A DNA stretch of 64,000 nucleotides, taken from an uncultured euryarchaeote (lineage in GTDB: Archaea; Thermoplasmatota; Poseidoniia; Poseidoniales; Poseidoniaceae). Positions 45,741 to 47,234 of this stretch are shown piece by piece (position 1 is the stretch's first letter; each line of letters starts with the position of its first letter). The notes below the pieces were generated by a model. That model saw only the letters and a list, made by a program, of their open reading frames with translations, was not told the origin of the DNA and ran no database searches. The stretch is from NCBI GenBank assembly GCA_937892945.1, contig CALBIL010000038.1, positions 1 to 64,000 of the forward strand. Direction: 5' to 3'. Position numbers and translations under genes: made by a program.

Positions 45741-46181
45741 TCACTCAAGGAGTTGCCAGCAATCGTCTGTGAGCCGAACCAACATACCTTGTGATTCAGC
45801 CATATCAATGAGGTCATGTGCATCGAGGGAATCCCCATTACCATCCAAAGCCGGTTGAAGAGTTTGGACTGTTAGCATGCCCTTTTCATCGGTTGCGTCA
45901 AGAAGAATTCGGGCAAGACCTTGAAAAGAAACCGGCTCATCTTGCTGGATTAAGGTCTGATTCGATTGAAGACGCTTACGAAGAGTCTCGCGAAGTTCAT
46001 CTGGTGTGTTGGCAAGAGCAACTTCAATTCGCAATTCTGATGCAGTTGACACCGAAAGGACAATCTCGGCATCGGATGGTAACTTCTGGCCACAGTGAGG
46101 ACACATACGTCCAATTCCGCGATGACCATGGCAAGTCAAACAAGCGCCGCAACGAACGACATTCCATCCGCTACCAGACAC
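45741..46181 (-). CDS. Hypothetical zinc-ribbon protein
   Basis: CGACLTCHGHRGIGRMCPHCGQKL then an acidic/helical region. Confidence 0.65.
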   Translation of the reverse strand: MSGSGWNVVRCGACLTCHGHRGIGRMCPHCGQKLPSDAEIVLSVSTASELRIEVALANTPDELRETLRKRLQSNQTLIQQDEPVSFQGLARILLDATDEKGMLTVQTLQPALDGNGDSLDAHDLIDMAESQGMLVRLTDDCWQLLE

Positions 46182-46216: not shown

Positions 46217-46822
46217 TCAAAGAGAAAAGTCAGTGTCTGATTTGCGTGAACCTGGGCGAAGTGCTGGTGCCGCTGGTGCTTTCACATCAACTCGCTTTGG
46301 AGGTGTTTCTGTTGCCTTTCGCGTCAATGCACCGCGGACAGGACCTGTTCCTGTTCGTGCTCCAAGTGAGAGTGAATTCGGTAAGATCAATGCCGCCATA
46401 GCCACACCATGGTGGTCAGCAGCTGCAGTCACTTCATCGACAGCAACATCGAAGGAAATGACTTCCAAGTCACGGCTTGCTAATTTACGTTGCAAATGCC
46501 GACGGAGAATGAGCGTTGTTTCCTCATAATCCAGTTCGGTCGATACAGTGGCGACAATCGCACATTCATCTCCTTCTGGGGTGACGCATGCAGCCCATGC
46601 CACACCTGCACAGGCAGAGGATCCATTCCAAGCAAAAGCAGTTGCAAGATGGCATTCAACCAGTGAACCCATTGGAAGTGGTTGAGGTGGGGTTGCGCCA
46701 AAGCCAAGAGGAAGCATAGCCCCCTTCATTTCAATTAAACGTGAATCTCCAAGTCCAAGTTCAACCAAGCCTTGGTCATATGCATCTTCTGCGTTTTCGC
46801 CCCATGGAGCTACGGCAGTCAT
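46217..46822 (-). CDS. Pyruvoyl-dependent arginine decarboxylase (PvlArgDC)-family protein lacking the Ser-Ser cleavage site
   Basis: ENAEDAYDQGLVELGLGDSRLIEMKGAMLPLG...PLPMGSLVECHLATAF resembles the PvlArgDC pattern ...[25 protein letters not shown]...LPMGALVPT (recalled). Confidence 0.7.
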   Translation of the reverse strand: MTAVAPWGENAEDAYDQGLVELGLGDSRLIEMKGAMLPLGFGATPPQPLPMGSLVECHLATAFAWNGSSACAGVAWAACVTPEGDECAIVATVSTELDYEETTLILRRHLQRKLASRDLEVISFDVAVDEVTAAADHHGVAMAALILPNSLSLGARTGTGPVRGALTRKATETPPKRVDVKAPAAPALRPGSRKSDTDFSL

Positions 46823-47234
46823 GAGCCAGCCAGGACATGCGACAGATGCCGAACGCTCTCCTTTTGATGTGTACATAGTGTGGATACAGAAGCAACGGGT
46901 TCATGAAGAACATGGTCGTAAGAATGCTATGGCGGCAGTTTCTCGAAGGCTACTCTTACTGACAGCCTTCATTCTTCTCATCGCTGGCGTTGGTCTGAAA
47001 ATTGCGAGTGGAGGAAGTACCTTATTGGCCGTGGCATCAGGACTTGGATTTATCTTGGTTGTACTTGCATGGTCTCTTTTTGACGATACCTCGAAACCTT
47101 CAACGCTCAAGGGTTCAACTCCCATCAAAGCAAATTACTCATCAGGAAAAGCTCTTCAGAACTCACAAGCTGAACCCCAAGAACAAACCCTACCAGATCC
47201 TCTCGAATCTGGTTTTGAGATTCCGTTAATGTGA
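46821..47234 (+). CDS. Small membrane protein
   Basis: Two hydrophobic segments LLLLTAFILLIAGVGLKIA and LLAVASGLGFILVVLAWSLF. Confidence 0.6.
   Translation: MSQPGHATDAERSPFDVYIVWIQKQRVHEEHGRKNAMAAVSRRLLLLTAFILLIAGVGLKIASGGSTLLAVASGLGFILVVLAWSLFDDTSKPSTLKGSTPIKANYSSGKALQNSQAEPQEQTLPDPLESGFEIPLM

Follow-up and report, generated by a model that had tools for sequence, protein, structure and literature searches.

The locus

The window analysed here is a stretch of 64,000 nucleotides from an uncultured member of the Poseidoniaceae (contig CALBIL010000038.1). One gene on its reverse strand encodes a relative of pyruvoyl-dependent arginine decarboxylase (PvlArgDC), and we use the denomination pseudo-PvlArgDC for this protein and its close homologues. 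The gene, its 3' part and its neighbour are located as follows.

46217..46876, (-) strand: pseudo-PvlArgDC gene, 219 amino acids, ATG at 46876, stop at 46217
46220..46363, (-) strand: C-terminal extension (residues 172-219), predicted disordered (pLDDT <50), basic, Pro/Ala-rich, ending in DFSL
45741..46181, (-) strand: downstream gene of the candidate partner, GTG at 46181, 146 amino acids, N-terminal zinc ribbon (4 invariant Cys) and C-terminal winged helix, DUF5817-like

An earlier note on this DNA had delimited the open reading frame to 46217-46822. The frame itself is real but not its start: the ATG at 46822 is internal (M19), the upstream ATG is found at 46876, and as the GWLMT motif is conserved the true N-terminus has to lie upstream of M19. 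The basic, Pro/Ala-rich tail that was also noticed is real, predicted to be disordered and under purifying selection, with residue F217 invariant in the homologue alignment. The C-terminus usually reads DF(S/G/T)(L/F), and forms from the order's second family (f2; N-termini of L032, L033 and L035-L039) also start with MDF; a short linear binding motif at these ends is possible, judging from their sequences. On the opposite strand and upstream of the gene a small ORF with a hydrophobic stretch is found (46821-47234, (+) strand), and 70 of 80 loci conserve it at this position. As the start given for it overlaps with the 5' end of pseudo-PvlArgDC, translation probably begins at a more internal site. 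Apparent insertions and deletions in the homologues of G032, G047 and G056 turned out to be runs of masked or unknown bases.

Homology and predicted fold

Searched alone, the window protein has no match in Pfam, PF01862 included, and the top two matches of a single-sequence phmmer search against the PDB are 1n2m (E 0.025) and 2qqd (E 0.047). The profile of its family reaches PvlArgDC at E 5e-5 and the Ser-Ser-containing active PvlArgDCs of other Thermoplasmatota at E 1e-12 to 1e-16, and the Pfam family PF01862 is matched by 16 of 25 homologues (best E 2.7e-10). AlphaFold2 places 153 of the 219 residues at a pLDDT of at least 70 and leaves the termini disordered. All 12 PDB matches obtained with this model in Foldseek at E <0.001 are Methanocaldococcus jannaschii PvlArgDC (best E 7e-13, TM 0.79-0.88 on target length), and the next match is pyruvoyl histidine decarboxylase at E 0.026. 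The resemblance to the PvlArgDC family that had been proposed from the letters is borne out by the PF01862 model, the profile searches and the predicted-fold overlay (E ~1e-12), and at the level of profiles and predicted structure these establish that the product of ORF 46217-46876 keeps the PvlArgDC fold. Viral relatives were searched for and none were found.

Replacement of the active-site residues

Residues were counted over 94 distinct pseudo-PvlArgDC sequences with the numbering mapped from the M. jannaschii enzyme. In this mapping Asp35 corresponds to D34, Asn47 to R46, Ser52-Ser53 to either K51-G52 or G52-A53, and Glu109 to T110 of the window protein.

46775..46777, (-) strand: D34, equivalent of Asp35 (Asp in 94/94, conserved in the dead and the short active forms)
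46739..46741, (-) strand: R46 at the position of Asn47 (Arg in 94/94)
46718..46726, (-) strand: K51-G52-A53 at the self-cleavage pair Ser52-Ser53 (G52 in 94/94, A53 in 94/94; position 51 K, Q, E, H or R, never Ser)
46547..46549, (-) strand: T110 at the catalytic Glu109 (T in 76, K in 13, S in 5 of 94, never E)

Asp35 of PvlArgDC has a role in binding the guanidinium group. The Ser-Ser pair can be placed in two ways, owing to a single additional residue ahead of the LP motif in the dead clade. The alignment of Ser-Ser with Lys-Gly, as given in the earlier note, is therefore one of two possible placements and not the only one, and neither of them offers Ser, Thr or Cys. Conservation of this Lys-Gly across homologues, which had been proposed as a check, holds for G52 and not for the variable position 51. 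The cleaved Ser is replaced by Gly, or by Ala under the other placement, in all 94 distinct sequences. As no conserved relocated Ser-Ser and no universally conserved Ser, Thr or Cys occurs between residues 46 and 71 of the homologues, a shifted cleavage site is not apparent. The pairing of LIMEYEG with IVATVST was correct and brings Glu109 opposite T110. In PvlArgDC the cleaved residue is the counterpart of Ser53 and Glu109 facilitates the cleavage (PMC2720952); the PDB entries 2qqd and 2qqc represent the N47A and E109Q mutants of the M. jannaschii enzyme. Judged by these replacements, the product of ORF 46217-46876 is almost certainly not a pyruvoyl arginine decarboxylase. The idea of a non-decarboxylating pseudoenzyme has thus gained strong support, since Ser-Ser, Asn47 and Glu109 are replaced in every homologue while the fold is kept under strong purifying selection.

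Constraint, phylogeny and distribution

Between close relatives dN/dS amounts to ~0.02-0.04 in the core of pseudo-PvlArgDC and to 0.02-0.12 in the tail (residues 172-219). The low core values mean strong purifying selection on a gene that is not decaying. A decaying gene or an artefact with chance resemblance to PvlArgDC could be read from the missing Pfam match of the window protein and its marginal single-sequence PDB matches; set against the fold match, the profile evidence, these dN/dS values and the presence across a whole family, its probability is practically negligible.

The dead proteins form one clade (support 100/100) that adjoins the short active type of Thermoplasmatota via a stem branch with a length of 3.4 changes per site and shows short crown branches, which reads as one burst of change followed by stasis. 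Pseudo-PvlArgDC is best explained as descending from the archaeal "short" PvlArgDC with loss of catalysis; the very long joining branch speaks against this. Between the active short type and the dead clade several positions were fixed differently (N to R46, V to H76, D to T99 and I to A88). Such refixation after a long stem is a pattern of neofunctionalisation, and it would fit a new enzyme in which the old pyruvoyl site was rebuilt from the invariant D44, R46, E74 and H76 with the retained D34 and catalyses a different reaction. Position 110 tolerates T, K or S and position 51 K, Q, E, H or R, a latitude that does not fit an old catalytic pocket tied to a single new chemistry; moreover there are no metabolic genes in the neighbourhood, where the constant element is a zinc-ribbon/winged-helix gene. 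We therefore regard a new enzymatic activity as unlikely.

A scan of genome contigs identified the carriers of pseudo-PvlArgDC as Candidatus Poseidoniales / Poseidoniaceae (Marine Group II). Relatives occur in 68 of 100 sampled relatives. Among 293 genomes of the phylum 57 gave profile matches; these comprise every Poseidoniaceae (f1) genome in the sample (43), four f2 genera and, from outside the order, four active PvlArgDCs. The f2 genera g2, g3, g4, g6, g8 and g10 (genomes of 1.2-1.6 Mb) have kept the zinc-ribbon gene and lack the PvlArgDC homologue: upstream of the zinc-ribbon gene none was found in the 16 of 17 genomes that are readable there (one contig ends early). A possible divergent copy in G091 was rejected as noise, a weak match of 15.9 bits inside a 389-aa ORF elsewhere. 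The retained zinc-ribbon gene (L246-L262) lies mostly downstream of an aCPSF1-like gene, with another upstream gene in two cases and too short a contig in one.

Arginine decarboxylation in the host

A PF01862 search of the own genome for an active PvlArgDC was empty with positive controls. The protein is the sole member of its family there, and its earlier description as a paralogue is not supported. Arginine decarboxylase activity was measured for SpeDA, an enzyme derived from SpeD, of Ca. Poseidoniales (DAC51064) and of marine group II/III (AIF02979), where it clusters with speB and speY (PMC10407285). In the own genome (G000:C27, L189:4312-6830) agmatinase speB, a SpeD homologue and a speY-like gene follow in a row as in the tested Poseidoniales cluster, and the SpeD homologue carries the ESHVSAH...TCG motif. 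The AdoMet_dc family is present in 75 of 79 Poseidoniales. TiaS was detected in 56 of 60 Poseidoniales, so agmatine is presumably still needed. From synteny and family membership the arginine decarboxylase of this genome is most likely the putative SpeDA of the speB-speDA-speY cluster. Non-orthologous replacement by SpeDA most likely relieved PvlArgDC of catalysis, if the events occurred in this order.

Dead relatives of pyruvoyl enzymes that activate a live enzyme are known (PMC5201418), and by analogy with trypanosome prozyme pseudo-PvlArgDC might regulate the SpeDA of its own cell. Prozyme, however, acts on its own paralogue, whereas SpeDA belongs to another fold family and is unlinked to the pseudo-PvlArgDC locus; SpeDA also works in vitro without pseudo-PvlArgDC (PMC10407285), and genera without the pseudoenzyme have the SpeD family too. 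Such a regulation is very unlikely.

The zinc-ribbon/winged-helix neighbour

The downstream gene begins 35 bases past the pseudo-PvlArgDC stop. It follows directly and on the same strand in 102 of 104 pseudo-PvlArgDC loci, the other two being contig ends, and in L220 and L221 the pair is intact while the nearby synteny is broken. Besides the four Cys its product has invariant N58, P60 and R64. The model (mean pLDDT 83) shows a C-terminal winged helix, with winged-helix proteins such as the MCM8 WH domain and Fur among the top Foldseek matches, none at E <0.001. An MqsA-like identity was considered and rejected, the matches being below the cut-off and confined to the zinc ribbon. Poseidoniales members reach PF19134 (DUF5817) only at E 3e-4, below the Pfam cut-off, and their profile finds the DUF5817 neighbours of active PvlArgDC at E 1e-9.

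Active short-type PvlArgDC loci have a zinc-ribbon/winged-helix protein encoded by the next gene as well, either overlapping or adjoining. Two of four such neighbours pass the PF19134 cut-off (33.7 and 31.6 bits) and the other two come close; in 19 of 25 short-type loci of other Thermoplasmatota the DUF5817 domain starts 12-23 bases after the PvlArgDC match (positions of PF19134 versus PF01862). Pairs with an active short type include L192, L193, L206-L208, L210, L211, L213-L215 and L217-L219. No DUF5817-type neighbour was seen in the long-type PvlArgDC loci examined, and a plasmid search for haloarchaeal PvlArgDC-DUF5817 pairs gave nothing useful; Haloferax volcanii does carry both families (PF01862 and PF19134). 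Since the same neighbour follows active short-type PvlArgDC, the pairing predates the loss of catalysis.

The first zinc knuckle is CxC in all 17 genomes without the pseudoenzyme (one reads CKCG) versus CxxC in 100 of 102 with it. This change fits co-adaptation, but it may well represent one event in one clade.

Proposed role

With moderate confidence we favour the reading that after the takeover by SpeDA the pseudoenzyme was kept for the sake of the zinc-ribbon/winged-helix protein, as its scaffold or as a partner that senses a ligand. In the lineage of Poseidoniales SpeDA would have taken over arginine decarboxylation and freed PvlArgDC from catalysis, and the PvlArgDC shell would have been retained because it was by then also serving a second purpose, that of partnering the product of the next gene. 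Pseudo-PvlArgDC would assemble, probably into a trimer as its relatives do, and bind the zinc-ribbon/winged-helix protein as a scaffold in a physical complex; the winged helix or zinc ribbon of the partner would then act on DNA or RNA. That the protein works through this partner is on balance probable, and the "regulatory" role suggested in the earlier note is plausible when anchored by the invariant neighbour. The adjacency of the two genes may reflect co-transcription only, and the zinc-ribbon protein, persisting in several genera without the pseudoenzyme, is not always dependent on it.

The retained Asp34 pocket could possibly sense arginine, agmatine or a similar cation. Sensing of a guanidino or polyamine ligand is nevertheless doubtful, for the idea rests on one conserved Asp that may have a structural role instead. 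Alternatively, the protein might sense no ligand at all and only stabilise the structure of the zinc-ribbon protein or assist it like a chaperone. In favour of this, the gene pair was conserved through the loss of catalysis, and the zinc-ribbon protein can stand alone with a remodelled first zinc knuckle. Against it, Asp34 and other positions conserved in active enzymes are strictly retained, though possibly for structural reasons; we regard this alternative as possible, yet clearly short of probable. A broader reading of the scaffold or partner role is held quite tentatively: archaeal PvlArgDC might be bifunctional, a decarboxylase and at the same time a trimer that partners a DUF5817 nucleic-acid-binding regulator and links arginine/agmatine status to gene expression, of which the Poseidoniales kept the regulatory half only after SpeDA took over. 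Their protein would then be a natural separation-of-function mutant.

Comparison with known systems

With PvlArgDC (PF01862; M. jannaschii 1n2m/2qqd; short archaeal type) the pseudo form shares the fold over ~150 residues, Asp35 and the LPMG motif, and with the short forms of Thermoplasmatota also the downstream DUF5817 gene. It differs by the replacement of Ser-Ser, Asn47 and Glu109 in every member and by the added disordered tail, and with these residues self-processing by the known chemistry is not expected.

The kind of protein is already known, both as dead pyruvoyl-enzyme relatives (PMC5201418) and as inactivated PvlArgDC alleles (PMC2720952). The aaxB of Chlamydia trachomatis is likewise a PvlArgDC with lost activity (PMC2720952), but it comprises recent nonsense and missense pseudogenes, whereas we describe an old and strictly conserved pseudoenzyme family. 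The trypanosome AdoMetDC prozyme is also catalytically dead and related to a pyruvoyl decarboxylase that acts in polyamine metabolism (PMC5201418); it activates a live paralogue, in contrast with pseudo-PvlArgDC, whose genome has no live PvlArgDC and whose fold family is different.

What is new is the pairing of a zinc-ribbon/winged-helix gene with both dead and active short-type PvlArgDC, older than the catalytic loss. The pairing suggests that PvlArgDC has long had a second role that is not enzymatic. Searches of the open literature, which covers few subscription journals, turned up neither a PvlArgDC pseudoenzyme family nor the PvlArgDC-DUF5817 gene pair, and no function for any DUF5817 member. 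DUF5817 proteins (PF19134) have the zinc ribbon and the winged-helix C-terminus in common with the partner, of which the Poseidoniales member has diverged below the Pfam cut-off. If the proposed role is true, it opens a first way into DUF5817 and presents a classical polyamine enzyme with a second role that outlived its own chemistry and that can be tested by studying the dead form beside the active one.

The activity that pseudo-PvlArgDC has lost is provided in these organisms by SpeDA, which belongs to an unrelated family and has a separate locus (PMC10407285). The fate of PvlArgDC would thereby be explained in dominant archaea of the surface ocean, where SpeDA is already established as source of arginine decarboxylation.
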